From positions 124,001 through 188,000 of the forward strand of contig NZ_JAQZAL010000005.1 in NCBI RefSeq assembly GCF_028737205.1: a DNA stretch of 64,000 nucleotides, in the 5' to 3' direction. Below the pieces are notes generated by a model, which did not search any database, was not told where the DNA came from, and saw only the letters and a list, made by a program, of their open reading frames with translations. Each line of letters begins with the position of its first letter. Position 1 is the first letter of the stretch. Position numbers and translations under genes: made by a program. Positions 20,785 to 63,131 of the stretch are shown here, piece by piece. Origin of the DNA: Actinomycetospora lutea (GTDB taxonomy: Bacteria; Actinomycetota; Actinomycetes; Mycobacteriales; Pseudonocardiaceae).

Positions 20785-20818
20785 GTCTTTGACCCGTGCA
20801 GCGCCCTTGCCTTGACTG
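20785..20818 (+). promoter_or_regulatory. Shared 34-bp box upstream of the crotonase gene
   Basis: GTCTTTGACC and CCTTGACTG are separated by 15 bases, 46 bases before the GTG at 20865. The same two blocks with the same spacing occur upstream of the MFS transporter gene at 24196-24229 on the other strand. The pair of TTGAC direct repeats could be a regulator site or an unusual promoter. Confidence 0.6.
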
Positions 20819-20864
20819 GAGCGGGCCCCGTCCTCGGCGGCCCGTCCCGAGGAAGGAGACCGGC

Positions 20865-22849: not shown

Positions 22850-24147
22850 GCGGCCGCCCGCTCGAGACGAGCGGCGTCGCGGTCGGGATCGATCAGCGGG
22901 ACCGACAGCAGACCCCCGACGACGATGACCACGCCGCTGATCGCGAAACCGAGCCCGTAGCCCGCCACGGTCGAGCTCGCCCCCGCGACGGCGAAGCCGA
23001 GCACGAGCGGGGCGATCACCCCGGCCATGCTGTAGATCGCCACGAGGACGCCGAGCACCGCACCGCGATGGGCCGGGGTGACCAGGTCGGCGACGACGGT
23101 GAGGGCGACACCGTAGGACGCCGAGTTCAGCGAGAACGCCAGAACGGTGAGCGCCATCTGGGCGGCGCCGGCCCCGAGGAGCGTCAGCAGGAACATGCAC
23201 GCGCCGCCGGTGACGACGAAGGCCGCGGACAGCCATCCGCGGGCGATCCGCCTGGGCACCCCACGGGCGACCATCCGGTTCGACAGCATCCCGGCACCGA
23301 TCGCCGCCACGGCGGCCACCGCGTAGGGCAGGGTCACCAGCCGCCCGGCGTCGGTGGTGTCGTAGCCGAGCCCCTGTTCGAGGTAGAGGGGCAGCCAGGA
23401 CACCCGCAGCGTCGTCGTCCAGTAGCCCACGAAGGTGAGCAGCCCGACCCCGAGGATCGTCGGGGTGGCCAGCTGACGGCCGACGAGGCGCCAGTCGGTG
23501 CGCACGCGGGGACGGTCGGCCAGGCTCGCCTCCTCCGGTGAGGGACGGACGAGGAGGAACCAGGCCGCCACCCACACCGCGCCCAGCACGATCAGCACGC
23601 CGAACGCGGCGTGCCAGTTCCACGAGACGATGACCCAGGTGAGGACGGGCGCCGCGACCAGAGGGCCGACCGAGCTCCCGGCACTGATGATCCCCGCCGG
23701 GAGCGCTCGCTTCTCGGAGGGGAACCACGAGTGCACGACGTGGGTGGCGAGCGCGTAGGCCGGCCCCTCGGCGAACCCGAGCACGATGCGACACGCGAGG
23801 AGGACGCCGAAGGTCACCGGTGTCAGCAACGGCACCATCGTCAACATCCAGAGGACCATCAGCGTCGGCATCAGCCAGCGCATCGAGACCCGGGTGCTCA
23901 GCGCGCCGACGATCAGGGCACCGGCGGCGAAGAGCCAGAAGAAGGCGCTCTGCACGAGACCGAAGTCCGCGGGCCCGATGCCGAGGTCGTCCATGATCCG
24001 GGTCCCGGCGAAGCCCAGCGCGGACTTGTCGGCGAAGTTCAGGACCATGAAGACGAAGGCGAGCGCGGTCGCCGTCCAGGCCCCGCGGCGGATGCCGGCG
24101 GCGGTCCGGCCCGGGGTGGCGACGTCGGCGTCGGTCGGAGGTGGCAT
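22846..24147 (-). CDS. MFS transporter (anion:cation symporter type)
   Basis: A 433-residue major facilitator with about 12 transmembrane helices. LNFADKSALGFAG in the first helix and the RIVLGFAEGPAYALATHVVHSWFPSEKRALPAGI block between helices 4 and 5 are characteristic of the ACS group, which imports organic anions such as phthalate, tartrate or gluconate. It is the first gene of a two-gene operon with the CoA-transferase and has the 34-bp box 48 bases upstream. Confidence 0.9.
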   Translation of the reverse strand: MPPPTDADVATPGRTAAGIRRGAWTATALAFVFMVLNFADKSALGFAGTRIMDDLGIGPADFGLVQSAFFWLFAAGALIVGALSTRVSMRWLMPTLMVLWMLTMVPLLTPVTFGVLLACRIVLGFAEGPAYALATHVVHSWFPSEKRALPAGIISAGSSVGPLVAAPVLTWVIVSWNWHAAFGVLIVLGAVWVAAWFLLVRPSPEEASLADRPRVRTDWRLVGRQLATPTILGVGLLTFVGYWTTTLRVSWLPLYLEQGLGYDTTDAGRLVTLPYAVAAVAAIGAGMLSNRMVARGVPRRIARGWLSAAFVVTGGACMFLLTLLGAGAAQMALTVLAFSLNSASYGVALTVVADLVTPAHRGAVLGVLVAIYSMAGVIAPLVLGFAVAGASSTVAGYGLGFAISGVVIVVGGLLSVPLIDPDRDAARLERAAA

Positions 24148-24195
24148 GGGGATGCTCCCGCGGATCGAGGCGCACAGGGTGCGCGACCTGCGACG

Positions 24196-24229
24196 CAGTC
24201 AAGGACAGCCGCTCGGCGCGGTCAAAGAC
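24196..24229 (-). promoter_or_regulatory. Shared 34-bp box upstream of the MFS/CoA-transferase operon
   Basis: On the minus strand GTCTTTGACC, 15 bases, CCTTGACTG: identical blocks and spacing to 20785-20818. It lies 48 bases before the ATG at 24147, almost the same distance as its twin from its gene. Confidence 0.6.
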
Positions 24230-24237
24230 CGGTTGAC
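24221..24237. promoter_or_regulatory. GTCAA-N7-TTGAC palindrome between LysR and MFS genes
   Basis: GTCAA at 24221-24225 and TTGAC at 24233-24237 form a short dyad that overlaps the shared box. It lies 22 bases from the end of the LysR gene and may be a LysR-type half-site pair. Confidence 0.4.
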
Positions 24238-24258
24238 CCGCCTGCTGATCGGCGCTCC

Positions 24259-25278
24259 CTATCGATCGTCGCGGACGGCCGCGGGCGGGTCCGACGCGAA
24301 CCCGGACCGCAGGCGGCTCCGCACCGACCGCTCCGTGGACGCTGCCGCCTCGATCAACCCGGCCCCGGCCCGACGTCGACGCTCGACCGCCCGGTTCCAC
24401 GAGGCGACCCGATCGCGGGTGTGGGTCAGGAACGCGGCGGCCGCCGCGGTGAGGGCCCCCGGCCGGTGGAGCAGCCCCACCTCCCGGCTCAGCGGCGGGT
24501 CCAGCGGACGCACCACCGCGTCGTGCTGTCGGGCGTCGAGCGCGAGACGCAACGGGACCACGGCCGCACCCGCTCCGTTGAGCACCATGGGGACCACCGC
24601 GCCCCGTTGCGGCACCTCGATCGCGACCGAGGGCTCGACCCCGTGGCGGCGCAGCGCCGATTCCACCCACTCCCGTGTCGTGGCATGGCGCTCCCCCATC
24701 ACCAGGGGGACGCCGTCGAGGGCCGGCAACGACACCGTCGCGGGGAAGGCGCTCTCCGTGCCGGGCGGGGCGATCAGCACGAAGTGCTGGGTGAGGAGCC
24801 GCTCCTGGGCGAGGTGCCCCTCCGGGAGAGGCAGGACGGTCACCCCGATCTCGGCCTCGCCCGTGCGCACCAGGTCGGCCACCTGCGCCGCGTACGCCCG
24901 TTCCTCGACGCGGGCCGTCACCCCCCGGTTGACCACCCGGAACTGCGCGACCCAGATCGCAGTCGGATCGGCCGAGAGGTCGGCGAGCGAGGCCACGTCC
25001 AGCCGGCCGGCCTCCACGTCGGCGACCTCCCGGACGGCGTCGTACGCCACATCGACGGTCCGCAGCATCTGTCGGGCCGGGCCGATCAGCGCCTCCCCGG
25101 CGGGCGAGAGCACGAGCCGGCGCCCGATGCGGTGGAAGAGCTCCGCCCCGACATCGTGTTCGAGCTTGCGGATGGCCTGGCTCAGCGACGGCTGCGCGAC
25201 GTGCAGGGCGGCGGCCGCACGGTGCACGCCGCCCTCCTCGACCACCGCGAGGAAGTAGCGGAGCTGCCGCAGGTCCAC
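24259..25278 (-). CDS. LysR-family transcriptional regulator
   Basis: A 339-residue LysR-type regulator: helix-turn-helix at about residues 1-60 (MDLRQLRYFLAVVEEGG, AAALHVAQPSLSQAIRKLE) and a periplasmic-binding-like sensor domain at about 90-295. The C-terminal 40 residues are an arginine-rich extension not usual in the family. It is in the same direction as and 111 bases upstream of the MFS gene, so it probably controls the transporter/CoA-transferase unit and, through the shared box, the crotonase gene. The GTG at 25278 has TACGGT six bases upstream, suggesting a leaderless mRNA. Confidence 0.9.
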   Translation of the reverse strand: MDLRQLRYFLAVVEEGGVHRAAAALHVAQPSLSQAIRKLEHDVGAELFHRIGRRLVLSPAGEALIGPARQMLRTVDVAYDAVREVADVEAGRLDVASLADLSADPTAIWVAQFRVVNRGVTARVEERAYAAQVADLVRTGEAEIGVTVLPLPEGHLAQERLLTQHFVLIAPPGTESAFPATVSLPALDGVPLVMGERHATTREWVESALRRHGVEPSVAIEVPQRGAVVPMVLNGAGAAVVPLRLALDARQHDAVVRPLDPPLSREVGLLHRPGALTAAAAAFLTHTRDRVASWNRAVERRRRAGAGLIEAAASTERSVRSRLRSGFASDPPAAVRDDR

Positions 25279-25330: not shown

Positions 25331-26062
25331 TCACTCGTCGGTCGCGTTCGTCGTCAACACGCTCTCCAGGTAGTCCAGGTCCTGGCGCAGCAGCCGCAGG
25401 ACGGCTGCCGGGTCGTCGGGGCGCGGGCTCTCCGGCCGCCGGTCGGGCGCCTGCGCGACCAGGGAGACGGCCATGTCCGCCATCTGCTCGGCCACCTCGT
25501 CCGGCGACTGCGCGCCACCGGGCCGGAACCACCACGCCACCCAGTTGCACATGCCGATGACGGCGAGCGCGGTCGTGCGCACCGGACGCGGGCGGAACTC
25601 CCCGCTGCGCACGCCCTGGTCGACCACGCGCGAGAACCCGTCGAGCACCCGACGCTTCGCGGCCTCGTGGGCGACGGCGAGGTCGTCGGGCAGCTCCGAC
25701 TCCGAGCGGATGACCAGCTGGAACCGGGCGGCGTGCCGGGCCTGCTGCCCGGCGACGAGCAGGACGAGGTCGCGCAGCTTCGACGTGGCGTCGGCGTCGC
25801 GGCCCGCGATCTCCTCGGTCGCCGCGGCCGGCCCCTCGGTGATCTCGGTGACCAGGCGCGCGAGCAGCTGGTCCTTGTTCTTGACGTAGTAGTAGAGCGC
25901 CGGACGCGTCATGCCCATCGCGTCGGCGATGTCCTGCAGGCTCGTGCCCGCGAAGCCCCGCTCGGCGAAGAGCCGGGTCGCCTGCTCGTAGATCTGGGCC
26001 TCGACCAGCTCCCGGCGGGGCTTGCGGGCCGCCGGGAGCTCGTCGGGTTCCGCCGCGCTCAT
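25331..26062 (-). CDS. TetR-family regulator of the hyu/P450 operon
   Basis: A 243-residue TetR-type repressor. The helix-turn-helix is at about residues 18-65 (ATRLFAERGFAGTSLQDIADAMGMTRPALYYYVKNKDQLL); the rest is the ligand-binding helical domain, with tryptophans (NWVAWWF) typical of the TetR_C_17-like group. It lies 28 bases after the P450 gene on the same strand and is probably the last gene of the long operon, giving feedback control. ATG at 26062 is chosen as the first start with a short N-terminal arm. Confidence 0.88.
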   Translation of the reverse strand: MSAAEPDELPAARKPRRELVEAQIYEQATRLFAERGFAGTSLQDIADAMGMTRPALYYYVKNKDQLLARLVTEITEGPAAATEEIAGRDADATSKLRDLVLLVAGQQARHAARFQLVIRSESELPDDLAVAHEAAKRRVLDGFSRVVDQGVRSGEFRPRPVRTTALAVIGMCNWVAWWFRPGGAQSPDEVAEQMADMAVSLVAQAPDRRPESPRPDDPAAVLRLLRQDLDYLESVLTTNATDE

Positions 26063-26090
26063 GGGCGGCGACGATACGGGCGTCCCCGCC

Positions 26091-27266
26091 TCACCAGACG
26101 ACGTCGACGCGCTGCGGGCCGCAGAACATCGGGCTGGCCACGTCGTCGTAGGTCGCGCCCGGGGCGAGCGCGAGCGTCGGGAGGCGGTCGAGCAGGGCGT
26201 CGAGCACCGTCGAGATCTCGATGCGCGACAGCTCCGCACCGAGGCAGAGGTGCACGCCGTGGCCGAACGAGAAGTGCCGCCGGGCGGTCGGCCGGTCGAG
26301 GACGAACGCGTCGGCGTCCTCGCCGAAGACCGCCTCGTCCGTGTTCGCCGACTCCAGCCCGATGATGAGGCGCTCGTCGGCGGCGAGCGCCGCGCCCTCG
26401 ACGTCGGTGTCCGTGGTGACCGTGCGCAGCACCCAGCGGATCGCCGAGCCGTACCGCAGCCCCTCCTCGCGGACCCCGTCGACGAGCGAGCGGTCCGCGA
26501 GCAGCCGCTCCCACCGCGACCGGTCGACGAGCAGCTGGTGGAGCGTCGAGCCGATCGTGTACGCGGTGCTCTCCAGCCCGGCGACGAAGAGCTGCCAGGC
26601 GTGGAACGCGACCTCCTGCTCGGTGAGCTCGCGCCCGTCGACGCGGCCCAGCGCCAGGCGCGTGACGAGGTCGTCGGGCGGGTTCTCCGTGGCGCGCCGT
26701 GACCGGGCCGCCGCGGTGAAGTACTCCTCGAGCCGGCGCCACTCGTCGGTGCCGACGAAGCTCGCCGGCAGGATCGCGGTGATCGCCAGCGACAGCCGGG
26801 CCAGCTCGTCGGAGTCCTCCGCCGGCACGCCGACCAGCCGGGCGATCACCCGCGCGGTCAGCGGCAGCGCGACCTGACCGACGAGGTCCGCGGGGCCGCC
26901 CGCCGGCAGCGCGTCGATGAGCTCCACGGCGTACTCGCGGACCCAGGGCGCGGCGTCGGTGATGGCCTTGCGCGCGAAGCCGGGCCGCAGCAGCGCGCGC
27001 AGGGCGGTGTGCTCGGGCGGGTCGCTCTGGGTGATGAGCGCGGGCGGCGGCTCGGCGCCCTCGTCGCCCTCCAGCACGAAGTTGCCCTGGTTCGAGAAGG
27101 TCTCGTGGTCGAGCAGTGCCCGGCCGACCACCTCGTGCCGGCCGGCGAAGCCGAGGCCGGGGGCGACGCGGTGCACGGGGCAGCCGGCGCGGACCTCGGC
27201 GAGCTGGGCGCGCACCTCGTCGAGGGGGCCGGGCACGAGGGGATCGAACGACTCGGTGGTGGTCAA
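26091..27266 (-). CDS. Cytochrome P450
   Basis: A 391-residue class I bacterial P450. The heme loop FSFGHGVHLCLG holds the axial Cys, the I-helix oxygen-activation motif is AGLESTA (Glu-Ser in place of the usual acid-Thr pair), and the K-helix ExxR appears as EEGLR. The protein needs a ferredoxin and reductase, neither of which is nearby. The best start is a TTG at 27266: GAGGAG lies eight bases upstream and the next protein ends at 27278. It follows the maleate isomerase gene by 11 bases, so it belongs to the hyu operon, where it would oxidise the substrate or an early intermediate. Confidence 0.9.
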   Translation of the reverse strand: MTTTESFDPLVPGPLDEVRAQLAEVRAGCPVHRVAPGLGFAGRHEVVGRALLDHETFSNQGNFVLEGDEGAEPPPALITQSDPPEHTALRALLRPGFARKAITDAAPWVREYAVELIDALPAGGPADLVGQVALPLTARVIARLVGVPAEDSDELARLSLAITAILPASFVGTDEWRRLEEYFTAAARSRRATENPPDDLVTRLALGRVDGRELTEQEVAFHAWQLFVAGLESTAYTIGSTLHQLLVDRSRWERLLADRSLVDGVREEGLRYGSAIRWVLRTVTTDTDVEGAALAADERLIIGLESANTDEAVFGEDADAFVLDRPTARRHFSFGHGVHLCLGAELSRIEISTVLDALLDRLPTLALAPGATYDDVASPMFCGPQRVDVVW

Positions 27267-27277
27267 GGTGCGGCTCC

Positions 27278-28030
27278 TCAGAGGCGGGCGGGCGTGGTGG
27301 CGCGCAGGAGCGAGCCGGCGTCGGGGAGGTCGGGGGCGAGGCCGAGGCCGGCCAGCAGGCAGAACGCGCCCGCGGTGGCCGCGGACAGGACGGGCACGCC
27401 GAGCTCCTGCTCGGCCCGCTCGACCAGCGGCAGCGACGGCATCTGCACGCAGGCGGAGATCACGAGCGCGTCGACTCCGGTGAGGTCGAGCCCGCGCGCG
27501 GCGTCCATCACCCGCTCGCCGGGGATGGCGCCCACCTCGGCGTTGTCGGCGACCTCGAGCGCGGTCCAGTCGGCGACCTCGAGCTCCTCGGCCTCGAGGT
27601 AGGCCACGACCCGCTCGGCCAACGGGCGCACGTACGGCGTGACCAGCGCGATCCGGCGCGCCCCGAGCGCGGCCAGCGCGTCGACGAGGGCACCCGCGCT
27701 GGAGACCAGGTCGGCGGCGACGCCGCGCTCGTGCAGCTGCGCGGCGACCTCCGACTCGACGCGGCGGTGCTCGCCCGGGCCCTGCGCCATGACGGCGACG
27801 AGGCACGCGTAGAGCAGGGCGTCGACCCGGGCGTCGGCGAGCTCGTCGACGCACCGGCCGCGCTGGTCGTTCATCGCCGCCAGCTCCTCGGGCGAGACCG
27901 TGTGCATGCGCATCCGGCTGCCGTGGAACGAGAACGTCGCGTCCCGGTGGCGCGCGAGCAGGGCGGGGATCTCCGTCTCGACGGTGACGTTGGAGCTCGG
28001 GACGATCAGCCCGACGCGGTGGTGGCTCAT
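27278..28030 (-). CDS. Maleate cis-trans isomerase (Asp/Glu racemase superfamily)
   Basis: A 250-residue member of the Asp/Glu racemase superfamily. Cysteines fall exactly at residue 76 (LLYACLVAV) and residue 194 (VISACVQMP), the two catalytic positions I recall for the Nocardia farcinica maleate isomerase; arylmalonate decarboxylases have only the second. PSSNVTVETE near the N-terminus is also typical. The reaction would be maleate to fumarate, feeding the TCA cycle. Its stop and start are coupled to neighbours (ATGA overlap with the AMP ligase, 11 bases before the P450), which suggests that the pathway generates maleate after ring opening. Confidence 0.85.
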   Translation of the reverse strand: MSHHRVGLIVPSSNVTVETEIPALLARHRDATFSFHGSRMRMHTVSPEELAAMNDQRGRCVDELADARVDALLYACLVAVMAQGPGEHRRVESEVAAQLHERGVAADLVSSAGALVDALAALGARRIALVTPYVRPLAERVVAYLEAEELEVADWTALEVADNAEVGAIPGERVMDAARGLDLTGVDALVISACVQMPSLPLVERAEQELGVPVLSAATAGAFCLLAGLGLAPDLPDAGSLLRATTPARL

Positions 28031-29622
28031 ATCTCGGTCTCCAGACGCGCGGTGATGTCGGCAGTCATCGCCTTCTTGTCGAGCTTCCCGACCTTCGTGC
28101 GCGGCAGGGCGTCCACCAGCTCCACGCGCTCCGGCCACTTGAACTTGGCGACGTCCAGCGCGGCCAGGTGCGCACGCAGGTCCTCGAGCGTGACGGCGGT
28201 GCCGTCGGTCGCGAGGTAGGCGCAGCCCCGCTCCCCGAGCCGCGGGTCGGGCATCGCGACCAGCGCCGCCTCGACGACGTGCTCGTGGGCGAGCAGGAGG
28301 AGCTCGACCTCCTCGGCGTTGATCTTCTCGCCGCCGCGGTTGATGAGGTCCTTGATCCGTCCCTCGATCGACACGGCCCGGTGGCCGTCCAGGACGCGGA
28401 CGGCCGCGAGGTCGCCGGTGCGGTAGGAGCCGTCGGCGGTGAACGCCTCGGGCCGGTCGACGCCGAAGTAGCCGCGCAGGGTGTACGGGCCGCGGCAGCA
28501 CAGCTCGCCGACCTCGCCGTCGGCGACCTCCTCCTCGCCGCCCGGCTCGAGGATGCGCACCTCGTCGCGCGGCGAGATCGGCACCCCGACCGTCGTGCGG
28601 CGCAGCTCGGCGGAGCTGCCCCGCGGCGTGACGAGGAACAGGCCCTCGGCCATGCCGAACAGCTGCCCGACCCACGCGCCGCCCCGGCCGGTCGCGGCGA
28701 ACAGCTCCTCCGAGACCTTGGCCCCGGAGAGCAGGACGACGCGCAGGGTCGCCGCGAGCTGGTCGTAGAGCGGGTGCTCCGGGGCGCGGTAGTGGACGTG
28801 GCCGAACAGCACCGAGGTGGTGCGCTCGGCGACGAGCAGCGGCAGGGCGGTGTCGAGGTCGTGGTCGGTGAGCACGAGGCACGCGCCCACGGCGTGCGCC
28901 CCGTGGACCCCGCAGGTGATGCCGGCATTGTGGATCACCGGGATGAGGTGGCCGACGCGGTCGTCGGAGGTCCAGCCGAGCACCTCGGCGTAGGCGCAGG
29001 CGTTGTACCAGTACTCGGCGTGCCGCCGCGGGATCAGCTTCGGGACCCCGGTGGTGCCGCCGGAGAGCTGGAAGACGGCGACGTCGTCGGGGTCGATGCC
29101 GCGCTGGATCTCCTCGACGCGCCGGCGGGCCTCGCCGGGATCGAGGTCGGCGACGGGCAGGTCGCCGAGGACCAGGACGTGCCGCATCGTGGGGTGGTCG
29201 CGGGCCTGCTCGTGGGCGAAGGCGACGAGGTCGGTGCCGCGCAGCCCCGCCTCGACGAGGTGCGCGCGGGCGCCGACGGCCCGGCTGATCTGCGCGATCT
29301 CGTGCCCGCGGTGCGCGGCGAGCGTCGCCACGGGGACCAGGCCCGCCTTGAGCATCGCGTACCAGGCGACGACGGTCTCGAGCCGGTTGGTGACCTGCAC
29401 GATCACCGGGTCGCCGGGCGCCAGCCCGAGGTCCGCGAGCCCGACGGCGACGCGGTCGGCCCGGGCGTCGAGCTCGGCGTAGCCCAGGCGGCCCTGGGCG
29501 GCGACGACGGCGTCGCGGTCCGCGTGGGCGATCGCGACCTCGTGGAGCTCCTCGGCGATCGTGCGCGTGCCCCAGAGGCCCTCGGCGCGGTACTGCGCGA
29601 CGAGATCCGCGGGATGGGTCAT
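28027..29622 (-). CDS. AMP-dependent acid-CoA/aryl-acid ligase
   Basis: A 531-residue adenylate-forming enzyme. The P-loop-like motif LSGGTTGVPKLIPR is at about residues 187-200, YRTGD marks the hinge, and KTKVGKLDKK (about 511-520) carries the catalytic Lys. It resembles 2,3-dihydroxybenzoate-AMP ligases and salicylyl-AMP ligase SdgA rather than fatty-acid enzymes; this is a judgement from the N-terminal TIAEELHEVAIAHADRDAVV and HAEYWYNACAYAEVLGWTSDD blocks. It would activate an aromatic acid for the downstream CoA-dependent hydroxylase. It overlaps both neighbours by four bases. Confidence 0.9.
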   Translation of the reverse strand: MTHPADLVAQYRAEGLWGTRTIAEELHEVAIAHADRDAVVAAQGRLGYAELDARADRVAVGLADLGLAPGDPVIVQVTNRLETVVAWYAMLKAGLVPVATLAAHRGHEIAQISRAVGARAHLVEAGLRGTDLVAFAHEQARDHPTMRHVLVLGDLPVADLDPGEARRRVEEIQRGIDPDDVAVFQLSGGTTGVPKLIPRRHAEYWYNACAYAEVLGWTSDDRVGHLIPVIHNAGITCGVHGAHAVGACLVLTDHDLDTALPLLVAERTTSVLFGHVHYRAPEHPLYDQLAATLRVVLLSGAKVSEELFAATGRGGAWVGQLFGMAEGLFLVTPRGSSAELRRTTVGVPISPRDEVRILEPGGEEEVADGEVGELCCRGPYTLRGYFGVDRPEAFTADGSYRTGDLAAVRVLDGHRAVSIEGRIKDLINRGGEKINAEEVELLLLAHEHVVEAALVAMPDPRLGERGCAYLATDGTAVTLEDLRAHLAALDVAKFKWPERVELVDALPRTKVGKLDKKAMTADITARLETEI

Positions 29623-31193
29623 CGCAGCGCCACCAGGTGGGTCCGGTCGGCGGCGAGGCCGTCGGCGAGGAGGTCGCGCAGGTCGTGCGGGCCCGCGACG
29701 ACGACGAGGGCGGGGGTCCGGCGGCGCAGCCGTTCGGCGACCTCGAGGCGGGTGAGCACGCTGGCGCGGTCGTCGCCGCCGGTCAGCCAGACGGTGCCGG
29801 TCACCGCGGCACCCCGGGCGACGGCCTCCTCGACGACCTCCTCGCGCCCCGCCGGCCGGTCGTCGGTGCCGGTGTCGAGCACGGTCGCGCCCAGCGCCGG
29901 GGGGTCGTCGGGGACGACGCGGGTGTCGAAGCCCCGCGCCCCGGGCGCTCCGTCCGCGGCCTCGAGGTCCGGCTCCTGACCCGGCGTCGAGGCACGCAGG
30001 GACCGCGTGAGCGCCCAGTCCGCCAGCGCGGCGCCCGCCGGAGGCTCCTCCCCCGCCCACTGCCGCAGGGCGGTGCGGACGACGTCGGGGGTGCCGGCCG
30101 CGAAGCGGTCGAGCGAGACGTTGCCCGCGCGGCTCATGTAGGCCACGAGGAGCTGCTCGACGGGGAGGTCCAGGCGCTCGGGGAACGTCTCCCACCAACG
30201 ACGGGACCGCTCGGCAATGTCCTGCAGGCGCCTGACCGCGGGCCGGCGGGCCGCCTCGTAGGCGGTCAGCGCGGGCCCGGGGTCGTCGGCCTCCCCCAGC
30301 GCGGTGACCAGCGCGATCGCGTCCTCCATCGCGAGCTTCGTGCCCGAGCCCACCGAGTAGTGCGCGGTGTGGGCGGCGTCCCCGAGCAGGACGGTCCGCC
30401 CGTCGTGCCAGCGGGCGCAGCGCACGGTGCGGAACTGCAGCCAGCGTGTCCGGTTCCCGATCAGCCGGTGGCCGTCGAGGTGGCGGGCGAACACGTCGGA
30501 CAGGTGGTCCAGCGCGACGTCGTCGGAGGCGTCGAACGGCAGCTGCGCCGTCGTGCGGTCGAAGCCGGCCGCCCGCCAGGTCGCCTCGTCGGTCTCGACG
30601 AGGAACGTGCTGCGGTCCGGCGCGTACGGGTAGGCGTGCGTGACGAACACGCCGTGCCGGGTGCGTTCGGGCGCGAACAGCGCGTGCGGCAGGGCGACGT
30701 CGACGCCGGCCCACAGGTACCAGCCGCTGCCGACCTCGACGTCCTCGCCGAAGTCGCCCGCGCCCCGCGTCGCGCTCCCGACCCCGTCGGCGGCGATCAC
30801 CAGGTCCGCGTCGAGCTCGTCGGCGGCGCGCCGCGTGCCGAACTCCAGCTTCACCCCGGCGTCCTCGGCGTGGCGCTGCAGCACGGCCAGCAGCTCCGCG
30901 CGCCCGACGGCCACCAGGCTGGACACGCTCATCCCGGCCTCGCGGTCGCCGACGCGCATCCGCATGTCGTGCGACCACGCGTTCCTGAGGATGTCGTCGA
31001 GCGAGGCGGGGTCGGCCTCGGCGAGCCGGCGCTGGGTGCGCGCGGCGAGCCCGACCCCGAACCCGAACGTCTGGTCCGGCACGCCCTGCTCGTGCACGAC
31101 GACGTCGCACCCGGGCCGGGCGAGCTTCAGCAGCCGCGCGGCGTACAGGCCTCCGGGCCCGCCGCCGAGCACGGCCACGCGTCTCAGGAGCAC
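29619..31193 (-). CDS. Salicylyl-CoA 5-hydroxylase-like flavoprotein with shortened C-terminal domain
   Basis: A 524-residue FAD monooxygenase. LGGGPGGLYAARLLK (FAD loop, about residues 9-23) followed by VPDQTFGFGVGLA is characteristic of salicylyl-CoA 5-hydroxylase (SdgC) and the hydroxylase half of anthraniloyl-CoA monooxygenase; DGRTVLLGDAAHTAHYSVGSGTKLAMEDA (about 262-290) is the second FAD motif. The last 70 residues, VLTRLEVAERLRR...VVVAGPHDLRDLLADG...HLVALR, look like the very end of an old-yellow-enzyme barrel, as found in fused bifunctional forms of about 770 residues, but the barrel itself is missing. It is next to an aryl-acid ligase, which fits CoA-ester ring hydroxylation. GTG start at 31193, one base after the HyuB stop. 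Confidence 0.82.
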   Translation of the reverse strand: MLLRRVAVLGGGPGGLYAARLLKLARPGCDVVVHEQGVPDQTFGFGVGLAARTQRRLAEADPASLDDILRNAWSHDMRMRVGDREAGMSVSSLVAVGRAELLAVLQRHAEDAGVKLEFGTRRAADELDADLVIAADGVGSATRGAGDFGEDVEVGSGWYLWAGVDVALPHALFAPERTRHGVFVTHAYPYAPDRSTFLVETDEATWRAAGFDRTTAQLPFDASDDVALDHLSDVFARHLDGHRLIGNRTRWLQFRTVRCARWHDGRTVLLGDAAHTAHYSVGSGTKLAMEDAIALVTALGEADDPGPALTAYEAARRPAVRRLQDIAERSRRWWETFPERLDLPVEQLLVAYMSRAGNVSLDRFAAGTPDVVRTALRQWAGEEPPAGAALADWALTRSLRASTPGQEPDLEAADGAPGARGFDTRVVPDDPPALGATVLDTGTDDRPAGREEVVEEAVARGAAVTGTVWLTGGDDRASVLTRLEVAERLRRRTPALVVVAGPHDLRDLLADGLAADRTHLVALR

Positions 31194-31194
31194 G

Positions 31195-33504
31195 TCAGGA
31201 CCTCGCGTCCGCGAGCACCCGGCTGGTGCGCGTCACGTCGTCGACGTGCTCGACCGGCACGACCGCCGTCGAGATCGCCGTGAAGCACCCCGGGCAGCAG
31301 TACTGCCGGAAGTGCACCGCGCCGTCGACGTAGTCGCCCGCGCCGTCCACGACCTGCGGGCCGGCGTCGGTGACCGGCCCCTCGTAGCGCACGAGGTCGA
31401 GCTCGCCGACCGCGCCGGAGCCGAGCACGGTCGCGCAGTGCCGGCAGGCGACCTCGGTCCCGACCGCGACGAGGTTGTCGTCCAGGCGCCGGCTGTCGGT
31501 GAGGTCGACGGTGGAGCGGTCGCGGTCACCGACCGCGGCGCGGGCGCGACGGGCCTCCCGCAGCTCGCCGCGGCGGCGGTCGGTCGCGCCGGCCTCGACC
31601 GCACCGGCGCCGTCGAGGACGACGCCGTAGGCCTGCTCGGCCGTCGCGGCGGTGACCTTCTCCTCCCGGACGTCGCGGGCGACGTCGGCGGGGTCGCGGG
31701 TCAGCGGGTCGCCGTAGCCCCCGCCGCCCTGCCAGAACATGGTGAAGACCTCGCCGGGCGCCACGTACGTCTCGCCGTAGCAGGGCTGCAGCTCCGCGGT
31801 GCCGCCGATCTCCTCGAGGTCGGCGGGCAGCCGGCCCTCGTCCAGCTTCGCCGTGACGTCGCTGCCGCGCGCGATCCACTCCACCCCGGTGTTGCCGGGG
31901 TAGCCGCCCGCGAGCCCGTTGTTCTGGCTCACCGCCTTGCCGTTGGAGGCCAGCACGAGGCCGATCGGGAAGCTCGTGCCGTGCGGGGTGATCGCGAGCG
32001 ACGCCCCGACACCGCCGCGGCGCCGTCCGGGACCGCCCGAGTCCGGCTCCTCGCGCCGCCAGAGCGCGAGCACCGGGTAGAGGAACTCGGTCATCTCGAC
32101 GTCGGGCACGCGCCCCAGCGGGATGCAGAACAGCCCGCCGGTGTCCATCCCGTCGGCCTGCGGCTGGGCGCCGTACCCGCCCGCCATCGGGTCCATCATG
32201 ATCGAGAGGAACGGGGTCGGGACGGCGCCGCGCTGGTCGAGCCCGGCGATGACGGCGGTGTCCCAGGTGCCGCAGCAGGTGGCCTGGACGTGCGCGTCCA
32301 GGCCCGGCGCCTGGTCGAGCATCTGGCTCAGGCACTCGGCGACGAGGTTGCCGGTCAGCCACGCCGGCCCGATCGGCCCGCGGCCGACCGCGGCCGGGAA
32401 GCTGGCGTTGTTGATCGTGCCTTCCTCGGCGACGAGGTCGAAGCAGCGCATCAGCCCGCCGGCCGACCACGGGATGTCGCCGGCGAGGATCGGCAGCAGC
32501 GCGAGCATCACCCCGCCGCGCATGCCGGCGTAGGTGCAGTTGACGACGCCGGACTGCGGGTCGGTGCCGGTGAAGTCGAACGTCAGGTGGTCGGCGGCCT
32601 TCGTCATCGCCACCGTGATCTTGTGCAGGCCGCGGTCGCCGGTGTGCGACTGGTCCTGGTAGCCGGTGGCGTGCCAGGTGCCGTCGGGGAGGTCGGTGAG
32701 CTTGCCGCGCAGGCGCGACTCGGCGTCGGCCATCATCCGCTTCATCACGGCCTTGACCGTGTCGGCGCCGTACTGCTCGATGACCGCGAGGAGGCGGTCG
32801 CGGCCGACGGTGTTGGCGCCGACCTTCGCCCGCAGGTCCAGCCCGATCATCATCGGCACGCGGGAGCGGCGGACCCAGACGTCGGCGACGTCGTCCTGCA
32901 GCACGCCGTCGCGCACGACCTTGATCGGCGGGGTGGGCAGCGACTCGGAGAAGACGTCCTGCGCGGCCGGGGAGAACGAGCCGAGACCGACGCCGCCGAG
33001 GTCGGGCTGGTGGGCGATCGCCGAGGTCCAGCCGAAGAGCTTCCCCTCCCAGAACACGGGCTGGTAGACCATCGCGTCGTTCTGGTGCAGCCCGCCGCCG
33101 ACCCACGGGTCGTTGGTGAGGAACATGTCGCCCTCGGCGATGCCGGGGTTGGTCGCGCGGTGCTGCAGGGTCCAGTAGATGGCGAGGTCGACGGCGCCGA
33201 CGAGCATCGTGTTGTAGAGCCCGACCTGGACCTCCTGGCCCAACTCGTCGGACACCGCGAAGTCGAAGTCGTTGGCGTCGGTGACGATCGGCGAGCCGGA
33301 CATGCGCTTGAGCGCCTCGCCCATCTCGTCGGTGACCGACCAGAGGCGGTGGCGGATCACCTCGTAGGTGAGCGGGTCGAGCGCGTCGATCTGCTCCTGG
33401 GTGACGGTGTGCACCGGCAGGCCCGCCGGCAGCTGCGCGGCGAGCACGGCGGGGTCGACGGGGCGGCTCGAGAACCTCTCGGAGCCGGGGACGGCCATCA
33501 CCAT
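31195..33504 (-). CDS. Hydantoinase B/oxoprolinase-type subunit fused to acetone-carboxylase-gamma-like zinc domain
   Basis: A 769-residue protein. Residues about 40-600 are a hydantoinase B/N-methylhydantoinase B domain (DPLTYEVIRHRLWSVTDEMGEAL, DMFLTNDPWVGGGLHQND). Residues about 670-760 form a separate domain with CRHC and CCPGC cysteine pairs and FRQYCCPGC, resembling the small zinc-binding gamma subunit of acetone carboxylase. In acetone and acetophenone carboxylases the HyuB-like subunit and the gamma subunit are separate chains. The fusion argues that HyuA plus this protein is an ATP-dependent carboxylase of a ketone or phenol rather than a hydantoinase. It is four bases from hyuA and one base from the flavoprotein gene. 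Confidence 0.86.
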   Translation of the reverse strand: MVMAVPGSERFSSRPVDPAVLAAQLPAGLPVHTVTQEQIDALDPLTYEVIRHRLWSVTDEMGEALKRMSGSPIVTDANDFDFAVSDELGQEVQVGLYNTMLVGAVDLAIYWTLQHRATNPGIAEGDMFLTNDPWVGGGLHQNDAMVYQPVFWEGKLFGWTSAIAHQPDLGGVGLGSFSPAAQDVFSESLPTPPIKVVRDGVLQDDVADVWVRRSRVPMMIGLDLRAKVGANTVGRDRLLAVIEQYGADTVKAVMKRMMADAESRLRGKLTDLPDGTWHATGYQDQSHTGDRGLHKITVAMTKAADHLTFDFTGTDPQSGVVNCTYAGMRGGVMLALLPILAGDIPWSAGGLMRCFDLVAEEGTINNASFPAAVGRGPIGPAWLTGNLVAECLSQMLDQAPGLDAHVQATCCGTWDTAVIAGLDQRGAVPTPFLSIMMDPMAGGYGAQPQADGMDTGGLFCIPLGRVPDVEMTEFLYPVLALWRREEPDSGGPGRRRGGVGASLAITPHGTSFPIGLVLASNGKAVSQNNGLAGGYPGNTGVEWIARGSDVTAKLDEGRLPADLEEIGGTAELQPCYGETYVAPGEVFTMFWQGGGGYGDPLTRDPADVARDVREEKVTAATAEQAYGVVLDGAGAVEAGATDRRRGELREARRARAAVGDRDRSTVDLTDSRRLDDNLVAVGTEVACRHCATVLGSGAVGELDLVRYEGPVTDAGPQVVDGAGDYVDGAVHFRQYCCPGCFTAISTAVVPVEHVDDVTRTSRVLADARS

Positions 33505-33507
33505 GGG

Positions 33508-35643
33508 TCAGGCTCCTTCGGGAGACGCAGCGGAGCGGAGCTCGACCATCGAACTCAGCTGGATGTGGAGGTTGCCGAGCTCGTCGACGGTGCCGGTGCG
33601 GCCGTCGGGGACGACGACGGTCGTCGTCGGGACCTCGACGACGGCCGGCCCGGTGATGACGTGGCCGGCGCGCAGCGCGGCGTAGTCGTAGATCGGGGTG
33701 TCGACGAAACCCTGGCCGATCTCGAGGTAGACCGGCCGGCGCCCCGACTCCGGCGGGTCGCCCTCGGCCGCGGCGAGCGGCGGGAGCTCGGGACTGAACG
33801 GGAGGACGCCGCGGCCGCGCACGCGGTAGGTGATGGCCTGGATGCCGGCGGCGCCGAAGCCGGAGCCCTGGCCGTAGAGCTCGGCGTACTTCTGCTCGAA
33901 CCGGTCCGCCGCGGCCTGCATCGCGTTCTCGTCGAGCGGGCCCTCGCCGACCGGCACGGTGACCTCGGCGAGCTGCATCGCGTAGCGCATGTCGACCTCG
34001 CGGACGATCTCGACGCGGTCGAACGTGAGGCCCTGGCGGTCGAGGCCCTGGCGGACCTGGTCCTCGAGCTGCGCGAAGTTCTTCTCCGCGCGCACCGCGT
34101 CGACGGGGAGCTGGGCGGGGTCGGAGAGCTCCTGGGCGAGCGCGATGTCCGAGGCGGCCAGCCCGTAGGCGGAGAACGCCGAGGCGACGGGACCGAGCGG
34201 GACGACGACCTCGCCGACCCCGAGGTGGGTGGCGTACTTCGCGCAGAACGCCGGCCCGGAGCCGCCGAAGGCGTAGAGGACGAAGTCGCGGGGGTCGTGG
34301 CCGGCCTCGACGACGCTCTTGCGCAGCAGGTCGCCGGTCTGGGCGTTCTGCGCGGCGTGGATGGCGGCGGCGGCGTCCTCGACGGACAGGCCCAGCGGCT
34401 CGGCGATCCTCGTGCGGATCGCCTCGCGGGCGCGTCCGAGGTCGAGGGCCTTGCGGCCGCCGAGCAGGCCCGTCGTCGGCAGGATGCCGAGGACGAGGTT
34501 GGCGTCGGTGTTGGTGGGCTCGGTGCCGCCCTGGTCGTAGCAGGCGGGGCCGGGGTCGGCCTGCGCCGAGTGTGGCCCGATGCGCAGGTTGCCGCCGGCG
34601 TCGACCCACGCGATCGCGCCGCCGCCCGAGCCGATGGCGTGCACGCGCAGCGTCGGGACGTTGATCGGGTGGTGGTTGATGACGGTCGTGGTGTCGCGCT
34701 CCGGCTCGCCGTCCACGATGAGCCCGACGAGGAACGTCGTGCCGCCGACGTCGGTGGAGATGATGTTGCGGTGCCCGAGGCGCCGGCCGAGCTGGCTCGA
34801 GCCGACGACGCCGCCGGTGAGCACCGAGCCGACGGTGGAGATGGCCTGCTGGGGCGCCTCCGAGGCCGCGACGGCACCGCCGTTGGACTGCATGACGAGC
34901 AGCGGACCGGCGAGACCGCGGTCGGTGAGGCTGCTCTCGAGGTTCGTCAGGTAGTCCCGCAGGCCGGGGCCCACCTGCGTGCTCATGATCGTCGTGGAGT
35001 TGCGGGCGAACTCGCGGATGCGCGGGCTGACCTCGCTGGAGAGCGCGACGTAGATGTCCGGGTCGATCTCGCCCACCAGCTCGCGGATGCGGCGCTCGTG
35101 CACGGGGTTGCGGAAGGCCCAGAGCAGGGAGACGGCGATGGCGCGGATGCCGTCGGCGCGCAGCCTCTCGACCCGGCGGCGGACCTCGTCCTCGTCGAGG
35201 GCGACCACGACGTTGCCGTCGCGGTCGACGCGCTCGGTGACCTCGAGGGCGTGCCGCTTGGGCAGCAGCTGGTGGTCCTTGTCCTGGGCGAGGACGTGCT
35301 GCAGCTCGTGCGGGCTGCGGCCCAGGTAGCGGCCCTCGACGTTCATGATGAAGATCGAGTCGCGGTGGCCCCTGGTGGTGAGGAACCCGACCTCGGGGAC
35401 CCGGCGCATGACCAGCGCGTTGAGGCTCGACGTCGTGCCGTGGGCGACGTGGTGGGTGTCGGCCAGCATCTCCTCGACCGAGCGCCCGAGCTGCTCGGCG
35501 AGCAGCTCGAGCACGTCCAGCACGCCCTGCGAGTAGTCCGGGGGCGTCGACGGCGCCTTCGCCGCGATGACCGATCCGGAGTCGTCGTCGAGCACCGCGT
35601 CGGTGAACGTGCCCCCCACGTCGACGCCGATCACATACGTCAT
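33508..35643 (-). CDS. Hydantoinase A/oxoprolinase-type ATPase subunit
   Basis: A 711-residue HyuA-family protein. The N-terminal GVDVGGTFTDAVL and the central ISTDVGGTTFLVGLI are the two phosphate-binding motifs of the actin-like ATPase fold, HVAHGTTSSLNALV is the family signature, and the C-terminal region has a beta-rich acetophenone-carboxylase-like domain. It should drive ATP-dependent activation of the substrate together with the HyuB/gamma fusion. It is the first gene of the seven-gene operon. The ATG at 35643 is preferred: the GTG at 35649 overlaps the GAGGAG ribosome site, which sits at the right distance from the ATG. Confidence 0.92.
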   Translation of the reverse strand: MTYVIGVDVGGTFTDAVLDDDSGSVIAAKAPSTPPDYSQGVLDVLELLAEQLGRSVEEMLADTHHVAHGTTSSLNALVMRRVPEVGFLTTRGHRDSIFIMNVEGRYLGRSPHELQHVLAQDKDHQLLPKRHALEVTERVDRDGNVVVALDEDEVRRRVERLRADGIRAIAVSLLWAFRNPVHERRIRELVGEIDPDIYVALSSEVSPRIREFARNSTTIMSTQVGPGLRDYLTNLESSLTDRGLAGPLLVMQSNGGAVAASEAPQQAISTVGSVLTGGVVGSSQLGRRLGHRNIISTDVGGTTFLVGLIVDGEPERDTTTVINHHPINVPTLRVHAIGSGGGAIAWVDAGGNLRIGPHSAQADPGPACYDQGGTEPTNTDANLVLGILPTTGLLGGRKALDLGRAREAIRTRIAEPLGLSVEDAAAAIHAAQNAQTGDLLRKSVVEAGHDPRDFVLYAFGGSGPAFCAKYATHLGVGEVVVPLGPVASAFSAYGLAASDIALAQELSDPAQLPVDAVRAEKNFAQLEDQVRQGLDRQGLTFDRVEIVREVDMRYAMQLAEVTVPVGEGPLDENAMQAAADRFEQKYAELYGQGSGFGAAGIQAITYRVRGRGVLPFSPELPPLAAAEGDPPESGRRPVYLEIGQGFVDTPIYDYAALRAGHVITGPAVVEVPTTTVVVPDGRTGTVDELGNLHIQLSSMVELRSAASPEGA

Positions 35644-35701
35644 GGCCACTCCTCATCGAGCCAGGGGCGTGACCCGAGCCACGCATTTGACGGTGCCGTT
35701 G

Positions 35702-35731
35702 AGTATTCGACACCAACGAAAGGCTCGTCAA
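35702..35731 (-). promoter_or_regulatory. Promoter of the hyu/P450 operon
   Basis: On the minus strand TTGACG (35731-35726), 18 bases, AATACT (35707-35702), in an unusually AT-rich patch 59 bases before hyuA. It is the only good promoter seen for the seven genes. Confidence 0.6.
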
Positions 35732-36040: not shown

Positions 36041-36814
36041 ATGACCGAGACCGCCCCAGCACCGCACGGCGACCCACCCGTGCGGATCCAGCTCCACGGC
36101 CGGTTCGCCCTCGCCGTCGACGGGCAGGGCGTCGAGCACCTGCTGCCCGGCCGGCGCGCCCGCCTGCTCGTCGCGGTGCTGGCGCTCTCGCCCCGCAGCG
36201 CGGTCGAGCGCTCGACGGTGATCGACGTGCTGTGGCGCCCGGCCCGCCCCGGGGACGGCGCGGCGGGGACGTTCGCCGCGCTGCTGTCGAAGGTGCGCAC
36301 GGCGCTCGCGCCGGGGGAGATCCGCGGGCGGCGCACCCTGCAGCTGGTCCTGCCGCCGGGCTCGATCATCGACGCGGTCGTGGCGCAGGGCGCGCTGCAC
36401 GCCGCCGAGGCGGCCGCGGCGCGCGAGGACTGGCCGCGGGCGTGGACCGAGTCGCTCAGCGCGCTGTTCGTGACCCAGCGCGGCCTGCTCGGCGACTTCG
36501 AGGACCCCTGGAGCGAGGAGCGCCGCGAGGAGGCCGCGCACCAGCACCGCCGCGTGCTGCAGTGCTACGCCGAGGCGTGCCTGCACCTCGGCCCCGGCGA
36601 GCGCGCCGGCGCCGAGCGCAGCGCCCGCACCCTCATCGCGCTCGACCCGCTGGCCGAGACCGGCTACCGGCTGCTCATGCGGGCCCACCTCGCGCAGGAC
36701 GACCGGGCGGCCGCGCTGGCGGTGTACGAGCGGATGCGCTGCGCCCTGCGCGACCACCTCGGCGCCCTGCCCAGCCCGGCCGCCCAGGAGCTCCACGCCG
36801 AGCTCCTGGGGTGA
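36041..36814 (+). CDS. SARP/BTAD-family transcriptional activator
   Basis: A 257-residue protein with the layout of small Streptomyces antibiotic regulatory proteins: an OmpR-like winged helix (about residues 14-105, VRIQLHGRFALAVDGQGV...) and a bacterial transcriptional activation domain of TPR-like helices (about 112-250, ending AAALAVYERMRCALRDHLGALPSPAAQELHAELL). SARPs normally activate a nearby biosynthetic or catabolic cluster. No secondary-metabolite genes lie here; the convergent hydrolase and the hyu operon are the only close neighbours. GGGGAGGGG precedes the ATG. Confidence 0.87.
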   Translation: MTETAPAPHGDPPVRIQLHGRFALAVDGQGVEHLLPGRRARLLVAVLALSPRSAVERSTVIDVLWRPARPGDGAAGTFAALLSKVRTALAPGEIRGRRTLQLVLPPGSIIDAVVAQGALHAAEAAAAREDWPRAWTESLSALFVTQRGLLGDFEDPWSEERREEAAHQHRRVLQCYAEACLHLGPGERAGAERSARTLIALDPLAETGYRLLMRAHLAQDDRAAALAVYERMRCALRDHLGALPSPAAQELHAELLG

Positions 36815-38557: not shown

Positions 38558-40972
38558 GTGCCTGGTTCGATCATGGGAACGGCCGTCCGACGCGTCGAGG
38601 ACCCGGAGCTGATCCGCGGTCACGCCACCTACGTCGACAACATCGTGCCGCCGGGGGCGCTGCACTGCGTCTTCGTGCGCTCACCGCTCGCGCACGCCCG
38701 CCTGGGAGCGGTCGACGTCGCGAAGGCCCGGGAGGCGCCGGGCGTCGTCGCGGTCCTCACCGGCGACGACATGACGGAGCTCCCCGACCATCGGCCGTTC
38801 ATGGTCCTCAACGACGCCTGCGCGCGGCCGCTGCTCGCCCGCGGCAAGGTGCGCTTCGTCGGCGACATGGTGGCCGCGGTGATCGCCGCGACCCGCGCCG
38901 AGGCCGTGGACGCCGCCGAGCTCGTGGAGATCGACTACGACCCGCTCGAGCCGGTCGTGGACCCCGAGGCCGCCCTCGCCGAGGGCGCCCCGCTGCAGTT
39001 CGAGGAGCTCGGCTCGAACCTCGCCGCCGGGTTCCGCGACCCCGACGACGTGCGTCCGCTCGACGGCGCCGACGTCGTCGTGCGCGCCCGGATCGTCAAC
39101 CAGCGCCTCGCCGTCGCGCCCATGGAGGGCAACGCGGTGACGGCGACGCCGGGGGGAGACGCAGCGCAGCGGATCTCGACCGGTGAGGACGGCGCGGACG
39201 AGCCGTACGACATGACCGTGCACGTCTCCACGCAGATGCCGCACGGCCTGCGCAACCAGGTCGCGGCCCAGTGGGGATGGGACACCGAGCGGGTGCGCGT
39301 CGTCGCGCCGCACGTCGGCGGCGGCTTCGGCGGCAAGGCCGGCCTGGCGCCCGAGCACGCCGTGGTCATCGAGGCGGCGCGGCAGCTCGGCCGGGCGGTG
39401 ACCTGGACCGAGACCCGCTCGGAGAACCTCACCGCGATGCCCCACGGGCGCGGCCAGGTGCAGTACGGCGAGCTCGGGCTGCGCCGCGACGGCACGATCG
39501 TCGGGCTGCGCGCCCGGGTCGTCGGCGACTCGGGTGCCTACGCCGGGTTCGGCGGCGCACTCACCCTCGGGCCGACGCGGAACATGGCGCAGGGCGTCTA
39601 CCACATCCCCGAGATCACCTACGACGGCGCCGCCGTCCTGACCACCACGACACCGATGGGCGCGTTCCGCGGGGCCGGGCGCCCCGAGGCCGCGGCGATG
39701 ATCGAGCGGCTCGTCGACATGGCGGCCCGCGAGCTCGGCGAGGACCCCGCCGAGCTGCGCCGCAAGAACTTCCTGCAGCCCGACGAGTTCCCGCTGACCA
39801 CGCGCACCGGCTCGCTCTACGACTCCGGCGACTACGGCCACGCCCTCGACGTCGCGCTGCGCGAGGCGGGGTACGACGCCCTGCGCCGCGAGCAGGCGCA
39901 GCGCCGCGAGCGCGGCGACCGCGTCGCGCTGGGCATCGGGCTCGCGGTGTACGTCGAGGTCACCGCCGGGGGCGGCGGCGGGGAGTACGGCGCGGTGAGC
40001 GTCGACGCCGATGGCGGCGCCACGGTCTCGGTGGGCACCTCGGGCCACGGCCAGGGGCACGCGACGTCCTTCGCGATGATCGTCGCCGACCGCCTGGGCG
40101 TGCCGATGGAGCAGGTGCGCTTCGTGCAGTCCGACACGGCAGCGGTGCCGCGCGGCGGGGGCACGGGCGGGTCGCGGTCGCTGCAGCTCGCCGGCTCCAG
40201 CGTGTTCGTGGCCGCCGACACCGTGCTCGCCCGGGCCCGTGAGGTCGTCGCGTCCGCGCTGGAGGCCGACGTCGACGACATCACGGGCACCGACGCCGGT
40301 CTCGGCGTCGCCGGTGTCCCCGACCGGGCGCTGACCTGGCGCGAGATCGCGGCCGCGGCCGACGAGCAGGGGGTGTCGCTGTCCGAGGCTCGCGACGAGA
40401 CGCAGCCCGGCGCGACCTACCCGTTCGGCGCGCACGTCTCGGTGGTCGAGGTCGACCTCGACACCGGGCGCGTCACGCCCGTGCGCCACGTCGCCGTCGA
40501 CGACTGCGGCACCGTGCTCAACCCGACGCTCGTCGCCGGACAGCAGCACGGGGGACTCGCGCAGGGCATCTCGCAGGCGCTGTGGGAGGGCTTCTCCTAC
40601 GACGCCGACGGCAACCCGACCTCGGGCACGTTCGCGGCCTACCTGCTGCCGACCGCCGCCGAGGTGCCGATGTACGAGGCCTCGTCCACCGAGACCCCCA
40701 CGCCCTACAACCCGCTGGGTGCCAAGGGCATCGGGGAGGCCGCGACGATCGGATCGACGCCCGCGGTGCAGAACGCCGTCGTGGACGCGCTCGCCCCGCT
40801 CGGCGTGCGCCACGTGGACATGCCGCTGACGCCCGACCGCGTGTGGCGCGCGATCCGCGACGCGGAGGCCGGCACGTCCGCGGACCCCTGGACCGAACCG
40901 CCGGCGTTCTTCGCGGACCTGCCGGTGCGGGGTGCGTCCGCCGATCCGGAAGCGGCATCGGTCGACGTGTAG
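38558..40972 (+). CDS. Xanthine dehydrogenase-family molybdopterin-binding (large) subunit
   Basis: An 804-residue molybdenum hydroxylase large subunit. [20 protein letters not shown] starts the family, GGGFGGK (about residues 250-256) and AFRGAGRPE (about 369-377) are cofactor-binding motifs, and GAKGIGEA near 723 has the catalytic Glu. AFRGAGR is the form seen in aldehyde/nicotinate-type and form II CO-dehydrogenase-like enzymes, not the active-site loop of true CO dehydrogenase. It would hydroxylate a heterocycle or oxidise an aldehyde. The FAD (medium) and 2Fe-2S (small) subunit genes that normally flank it are not in this window. An ATG at 38573 is an alternative start. Confidence 0.88.

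Positions 40973-60881: not shown

Positions 60882-63131
<2,250 letters not shown>

Follow-up and report, generated by a model that had tools for sequence, protein, structure and literature searches.

In the Sdg salicylate route of Streptomyces WA46, the aryl acid is reportedly converted to its coenzyme A (CoA) thioester and then hydroxylated by a flavin adenine dinucleotide (FAD) enzyme. We analysed a stretch of 64,000 nucleotides from Actinomycetospora lutea (contig NZ_JAQZAL010000005.1, positions 124,001 to 188,000; hereafter the window) that carries a seven-gene operon encoding, among other proteins, the subunits HyuA and HyuB (together HyuAB). Together with three further genes, it makes up a ten-gene module. 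Like the Sdg route, the module would activate an aryl acid with CoA and then use a related FAD hydroxylase. Unlike the Sdg route, it has no cupin gentisate 1,2-dioxygenase among its genes (family scans), and holds instead a VOC-fold protein with an effector-like partner, an alpha/beta hydrolase and a maleate isomerase, with HyuAB as a further addition.

HyuAB itself resembles two described systems. It shares with acetophenone carboxylase ApcA-E the alpha and beta subunits and, on a weak sequence match, may also share the small zinc subunit with its four cysteines; it differs in its single alpha subunit, the fusion of the gamma-like domain to beta, the lack of epsilon and the aryl-acid type of the accompanying ligase (PMC5214803). 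The same source places a CoA ligase gene in the apc operon, and assigns the four-cysteine small subunit to ketone carboxylases and only alpha and beta subunits to hydantoinases (PMC5214803). With caprolactamase CapAB, HyuAB shares the metal tetrad (PMC8453981), and CapA is the best NCBIfam model for HyuA, below cut-off. Unlike CapAB, where the beta chain of PDB 6yra has 581 residues, HyuB has 769 and an added zinc domain. The effectors MmoB, DmpM and T4moD resemble the 81-residue protein of the module in fold and, weakly, in sequence; unlike them, this protein has no diiron hydroxylase in its module and is partnered by an adjoining or fused VOC protein. The closest maleate isomerase structure, PDB 2xec, is from Nocardia farcinica; the module differs from that context in that maleate would be supplied by the proposed CoA-dependent aromatic route. 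CoA-dependent catabolism of the salicylate type is already known, and an effector-like partner of a VOC protein could be categorically new.

We put at about even odds (probability roughly 0.5) the reading that the module catabolises a 2-hydroxyaryl acid to fumarate, with HyuAB outside the core; salicylate or a compound much like it is the likeliest substrate. From the observed gene set, its conservation, invariant residues, predicted folds and a gene fusion, we infer the substrates, the reactions and the placement of HyuAB as follows. The ligase would convert the aryl acid, via the acyl-adenylate (acyl-AMP), to its CoA thioester, and the FAD enzyme would hydroxylate the ring to give a gentisyl-CoA-type product. 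The VOC protein, acting with the MmoB/DmpM-fold protein, would open the ring, either of this product or of the corresponding free acid. The alpha/beta hydrolase would then split off the four-carbon maleyl unit, giving maleate and a three-carbon unit, and the maleate isomerase would produce fumarate from the maleate. HyuAB and the gamma-like domain fused to it would most likely act upstream, as an ATP-dependent enzyme of the carboxylase type that converts a neutral precursor to the aryl acid. The palindrome before HyuA is probably the site at which TetR represses, and the P450 would be an optional add-on to the route.

Open reading frame tables and family scans confirmed the seven minus-strand genes at 25331-35643, with the spacing that an earlier sequence-only reading had given them. 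They run from HyuA through HyuB, the FAD hydroxylase, the CoA ligase, the maleate isomerase and the P450 to TetR, separated in turn by gaps of 3 and 1 bases, two 4-base overlaps, and gaps of 11 and 28 bases. The genes for the VOC protein, the 81-residue protein and the alpha/beta hydrolase, which the sequence-only reading had left out, also belong to the module; they follow TetR in its relatives (20 neighbourhoods compared). Here this trio (18558-20673) is cut off from TetR by an inserted block (20796-25278) consisting of LysR, MFS and CoA transferase III genes and an oppositely oriented enoyl-CoA hydratase gene. In two other genomes, at loci L037 and L039, the same block occupies that place.

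A survey anchored on the VOC protein returned at least 141 relatives, of which we kept the best 80 loci. Each spans about 10 kb on either side of the VOC gene, genes were counted by identity threshold, and some absences reflect truncated stretches (for example L083, L084, L088 and L132). The small protein and the hydrolase were present in 80/80 loci and TetR in 77/80, followed by the ligase (76/80), the maleate isomerase (72/80), the hydroxylase (71/80), HyuB (66/80) and HyuA (64/80). The six non-P450 operon genes recur together, and their grouping is therefore not due to chance. Moreover, the module stays together across differing operon orders: in Rhodococcus, Gordonia and Williamsia the set mostly forms a pair of operons that diverge from each other, TetR-hydroxylase-ligase-HyuB-HyuA and isomerase-VOC-small protein-hydrolase. 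The sequence-only reading had named, as an outcome that would tell against its operon, homologous loci that retain no more than parts of the set in unrelated surroundings. Such an outcome was found for the P450 alone; many actinobacterial genera keep the core as a set. That reading had also offered the P450 as the starter of an unusual route. A relative occurs in 5/80 loci, and 4 of the genus's 15 other main-type loci carry one; we reject a role as general pathway starter; on this distribution the P450 is an accessory, an optional add-on.

The nearest named relatives of the window belong to Actinomycetospora, and within this genus, hydroxylase relatives with 78-89% identity occur in 15 of the 17 other genomes. 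The host gave the sole match to the VOC profile in a phylum sample of 296 genomes, and in a class sample the hydrolase profile matched 48 of 394 genomes at E ≤ 1e-30, six of them, the host included, above 370 bits. An MFS gene of one family is present in 14/80 loci; it is found in 5 of the 10 loci lacking HyuAB as against 9 of about 66 with HyuAB, counts that are not independent and that we do not use as proof. The best model for all three MFS proteins tested was aromatic acid/H+ symport, below cut-off. Our searches of open-licence papers in PMC found no description of the module gene set.

The VOC protein is a candidate for the ring-cleavage step, for which the sequence-only reading had seen no dioxygenase in the operon. 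A His-His-Glu metal triad (H13, H102 and E150, positions assigned from the alignment) is invariant in 80/80 aligned proteins, two of them proteobacterial. Its small partner has, according to the predicted model, the MmoB/DmpM effector fold: every one of Foldseek ranks 1-31 is a diiron-monooxygenase effector or regulatory protein or a complex containing one, the best being 2inn_L (E 4.5e-5, TM score 0.78). The family model PF02406 (MmoB_DmpM) matches 11 of 19 relatives (best E 2.9e-4) and does not match the window protein itself; one relative also matches a zinc-finger model. Family scans found no diiron hydroxylase among the module genes, and 9 of 36 module genomes, some of them drafts or metagenome-assembled genomes, have no PF02332 match. 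We considered whether the small protein might serve the host's own diiron monooxygenase; this is unlikely, as that enzyme has its own PF02406 effector adjoining it at C51. The VOC protein and its small partner form one open frame in the Burkholderiales Variovorax, Cupriavidus and Caballeronia, and the two therefore very likely act together. In each of the 13 plasmid records that contain the small protein, the VOC gene adjoins it or is fused to it (12 by VOC search, Tistrella by annotation).

The third member of the trio matched no Pfam or NCBIfam model. It has a predicted alpha/beta-hydrolase fold (predicted local distance difference test, pLDDT, 88) for which the fold search returned generic alpha/beta hydrolases only, and S121, D353 and H382 are present in 79/79 aligned proteins. 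A hydrolase relative with 65% identity lies on the Tsukamurella plasmid L179 (about 10030-11170) where no gene is listed. A distant relative (32%) is found in the same order at L169 (8743-9948), where the adjoining genes are, by eye, a CoA transferase and an HMG-CoA lyase.

The sequence-only reading had proposed aryl-CoA activation and hydroxylation as in the Sdg route, with an end at fumarate through maleate isomerase, and sequence comparison is in line with both parts. The closest PDB sequence to the ligase is the salicylate-AMP ligase 5wm2 (E 6.8e-101), followed by other aryl-acid adenylating enzymes; its best NCBIfam model, DHB_AMP_lig, lies below cut-off. Aligned with 5wm2, the ligase shares the HN...C pattern of salicylate ligase (N235 and C240). 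The hydroxylase resembles the N-terminal half of the bifunctional salicylyl-CoA 5-hydroxylase/oxidoreductase: it scores 299.5 bits against NF006101 (cut-off 1078) over residues 5-365, the FAD half only, and its best PDB match is VioD. Its C-terminal tail, a possible remnant of an Old Yellow Enzyme domain, aligns with that domain at P 7e-4 and 26% probability (hhalign); none of 18 hydroxylase family members matches Oxidored_FMN. The isomerase is, by sequence, securely a maleate isomerase. It matches 2xec, annotated as a putative maleate isomerase, with 337 bits over 243 residues, and Cys76 and Cys194, presumably catalytic, are both present in 69/69 aligned proteins. The almost identical entry 2xed differs from 2xec at the second cysteine.

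Full-length gentisate 1,2-dioxygenase matches (E < 1e-60) occur in 13 of the 36 module genomes and not in the other 23, the host included; the host genome has a partial match only, at E 6.5e-4. Ring opening by the VOC protein and its effector-like partner fits, because these 23 genomes are without a full-length match. The gentisate-dioxygenase family cut-off is uninformative, since 0/36 pass it and the control Corynebacterium glutamicum fails too. Elsewhere in the host genome, at L162 (6417-8735), a PaaK-like ligase adjoins a bifunctional salicylyl-CoA 5-hydroxylase/oxidoreductase that is complete and scores above cut-off (1112 bits); we read this pair as an anthranilate-type route. This separate pair weakens anthranilate as the main substrate of the module. 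We set aside an indoleacetate/oxindole route, since among the papers listed for it no title concerned the module gene set.

The loci vary around their core. The majority carry the full set (variant A). Variant B (L110, L123, L155 and L159) has the MFS gene and no HyuAB in the locus, the L155 protein matching the aromatic acid/H+ symport model below cut-off. Variant C (L113 and L097) has HyuAB and no maleate isomerase in the locus, and variant D (L137, L149 and L160) combines an aldehyde dehydrogenase with the ligase, the isomerase and the trio, without hydroxylase or HyuAB. Thiolase and MaoC-like genes and, by eye, a 3-hydroxyacyl-CoA dehydrogenase gene occur at L147; L154 has HyuAB together with MaoC-like, HMGL-like and CoA transferase genes, and inspection by eye adds genes for a P450 and a ferredoxin. 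Of 20 genomes searched, 13 hold a HyuA with at least 55% identity and 7 do not; for L123 and L159 the genome holds none at this threshold (best 37% and 40%).

Relatives of the module also exist in Proteobacteria. We fetched five plasmid clusters, from Cupriavidus, Variovorax, Caballeronia, Pseudosulfitobacter and Tistrella, and all six core relatives are present in each. Identities are highest for the hydrolase (48-54%), the maleate isomerase (48-53%) and the VOC protein (41-46%), followed by the ligase (36-41%), the hydroxylase (34-37%) and the small protein (32-38%). In the three annotated clusters, the FAD monooxygenase gene is also adjoined by one for a thioesterase, and transporter genes of the TTT or TRAP type are present. 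HyuAB was found in none of the five stretches, and a search of the five plasmid records, though not of the strains' other replicons, gave no HyuA relative exceeding 37% identity. The core route that leads from aryl acid to maleate therefore seems to run without HyuAB, which most simply acts upstream or for a particular substrate.

The gamma-like zinc domain that the sequence-only reading had seen on HyuB (approximately residues 660-769) gains some support. Searched as a 14-locus alignment against 177,635 PDB sequences, it has as its best match the acetophenone carboxylase small subunit 5l9w_C, at a weak E of 0.023; the next match, at E 0.12, is unrelated. The four cysteines align with those of 5l9w_C and are present in 63/64 aligned proteins. 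HyuA keeps its phosphate (ATP) motifs, and HyuB its metal ligands D79, H140, D143 and H165, wherever aligned. With this zinc domain, HyuAB departs from the make-up of two subunits and no gamma domain that characterizes ATP-dependent hydantoinases and lactamases; carboxylation, as first proposed for it, is possible, although subunit make-up by itself does not establish activity. A HyuB relative at L144 (15029-17011) is without the zinc gamma domain. Among PDB sequences, HyuA scores 408 bits with N-methylhydantoinase 7hk5, 380 with 6yra and 379 with the acetophenone carboxylase chain 5l9w_B; we take 6yra, named 5-oxoprolinase, to be the caprolactamase CapA. None of the curated models passed: CapA reached 530 bits and CapB 224 (cut-off 1000 for both), ApcC 411 and ApcD 191 (cut-off 1500 for both).

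These scores speak for a different role, in which HyuAB is an ATP-dependent hydrolase within the pathway and acts on a lactam, imide or lactone that arises once the ring of a nitrogen-containing substrate, such as a hydroxypicolinate or an anthranilate-type acid, has been cleaved. HyuA ranks 7hk5 above the carboxylase chain and CapA as its best NCBIfam model, and HyuB keeps the metal ligands common to hydrolases. However, we think this role unlikely, given the carboxylase-type gamma domain (weak as its E-value is) and the lack of HyuAB in 5/5 proteobacterial clusters and in actinobacterial L159; the host, moreover, already has the separate L162 pair, which we read as an anthranilate-type route.

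Several observations weigh against the proposed catabolism of salicylate-type acids. VOC folds also serve as glyoxalases, and sequence alone does not separate dioxygenases from glyoxalases. L137, L147, L149 and L160 have no hydroxylase relative in the locus despite having the ligase, VOC, effector, hydrolase and isomerase. The HN of the ligase is kept across the clusters read, whereas the C240 position, Cys here, is Ala, Leu, Val or Tyr elsewhere, so that substrates differ among clusters. Among the variant B loci, the genomes of L110 and L155 carry HyuA at another place (77% and 86%), and L123 is without the isomerase at the identity threshold; L159 is therefore the one documented complete actinobacterial case free of HyuAB. 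A Paraburkholderia hospita plasmid has a VOC relative (45%) with no small-protein match in the record, and the Mycobacterium avium plasmid pP7a (L173) has the VOC-effector pair without hydrolase, ligase or isomerase relatives in the stretch. Finally, on a Streptomyces plasmid, an annotated cupin, a maleylpyruvate isomerase and a fumarylacetoacetate-hydrolase-family protein stand directly beside the module; these would be redundant if the VOC protein cleaved gentisate. At L173, the genes neighbouring the VOC-effector pair are annotated as P450, PDR/VanB oxidoreductase, FAD oxidoreductase and HMG-CoA lyase, and within another, annotated as heme-binding protein, there is a hydroxylase relative (37.5%).

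The Streptomyces neighbours, which are of the lower gentisate-pathway type, belong to a second alternative, that ring cleavage falls to an unlinked dioxygenase and the VOC-effector-hydrolase trio handles a later CoA or diacid intermediate. The 13 module genomes with a gentisate-dioxygenase-like match elsewhere would suit it, as would the thiolase, MaoC-like or HMGL-like genes beside some trios. It is nevertheless unlikely: the host is among the 23 genomes without such a match, the trio is constant across the best 80 VOC-anchored loci while other parts vary, and the effector fold is otherwise tied to oxygenases. The boldest combination, in which the VOC protein and effector fold form a new two-component ring-cleaving oxygenase and HyuAB-gamma is also an ATP-dependent ortho-carboxylase turning phenols into salicylates, strikes us as improbable as a whole. 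That the operon serves natural-product biosynthesis or resistance rather than catabolism is very improbable, for although a P450 lies within it and an AfsR-like gene adjoins it (36041-36814), many genera conserve the set with aromatic-acid-type transporter genes and maleate isomerase, and the VOC protein occurs in 16 of 18 genus genomes, the two without it being 59% and 83% complete.

If the proposed catabolic route is true, a widespread actinobacterial module with relatives in Proteobacteria opens aromatic rings, with key genes whose present annotations go no further than VOC family protein, alpha/beta hydrolase and hypothetical protein. It would explain how aryl-CoA routes are completed in genomes without a gentisate dioxygenase, assign a role to the HyuAB subgroup in which a carboxylase-type domain is fused, and present a case of a VOC metalloenzyme partnered by the effector fold of oxygenases. 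The features of the module in the window are collected in Table 1.

Table 1. Genes and putative control sites of the module (positions within the window)
Feature	Position	Strand	Support or remark
HyuA	33508-35643	-	Pfam Hydantoinase_A, E 3.6e-74
HyuB, metal-binding beta subunit; zinc-like Cys4 gamma domain fused at the C-terminus	31195-33504	-	Pfam Hydantoinase_B
FAD-dependent aryl-CoA hydroxylase (predicted)	29619-31193	-	GTG start; NCBIfam NF006101, below cut-off
Aryl-acid AMP/CoA ligase, salicylate type (predicted)	28027-29622	-	NCBIfam DHB_AMP_lig; PDB 5wm2
Maleate cis-trans isomerase	27278-28030	-	PDB 2xec
Cytochrome P450, accessory	26091-27266	-	TTG start; Pfam p450
TetR-family regulator	25331-26062	-	Pfam TetR_N and TetR_C_24
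VOC-fold metalloprotein, proposed ring-cleaving oxygenase	20050-20673	-	Pfam Glyoxalase, E 8.5e-14
81-residue MmoB/DmpM-fold effector-like protein	19808-20053	-	Model pLDDT 96; Foldseek
Alpha/beta hydrolase, proposed C-C or thioester hydrolase	18558-19811	-	Predicted fold
Promoter-like TTGACG / 18 bp / AATACT	35702-35731	-	By eye; upstream of HyuA
Palindromic operator-like site CGTGGCTCGGGTCACG	35668-35683	-	Upstream of HyuA; 15/15 genus loci

The region before HyuA has its own conserved elements. TTGAC is kept in all 15 aligned genus loci, the window included, and the -10-like part is less conserved. The same 15 loci keep the 18-bp palindrome, whose outermost pair covaries as G..C or T..A, and from this pattern the palindrome is likely an operator. 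The window holds a single exact copy, and none was found in it before the VOC gene. Near-matches with up to 2 mismatches in the 80 named loci do not lie at module promoters; the exception among these loci is an exact copy at L145, in the HyuA upstream region. So far, the operator site is a feature of the genus. Directly upstream of the operon and divergent from it lies the weakly AfsR-like BTAD-domain gene (36041-36814, plus strand). A gene for a KatG catalase-peroxidase-like protein, judged by its N-terminal sequence, occupies 60882-63092 on the minus strand. A large subunit of the molybdenum-hydroxylase type (MoCoBD domains) is encoded at 38573-40972 on the plus strand, and is near the module in five genus loci, the window included.

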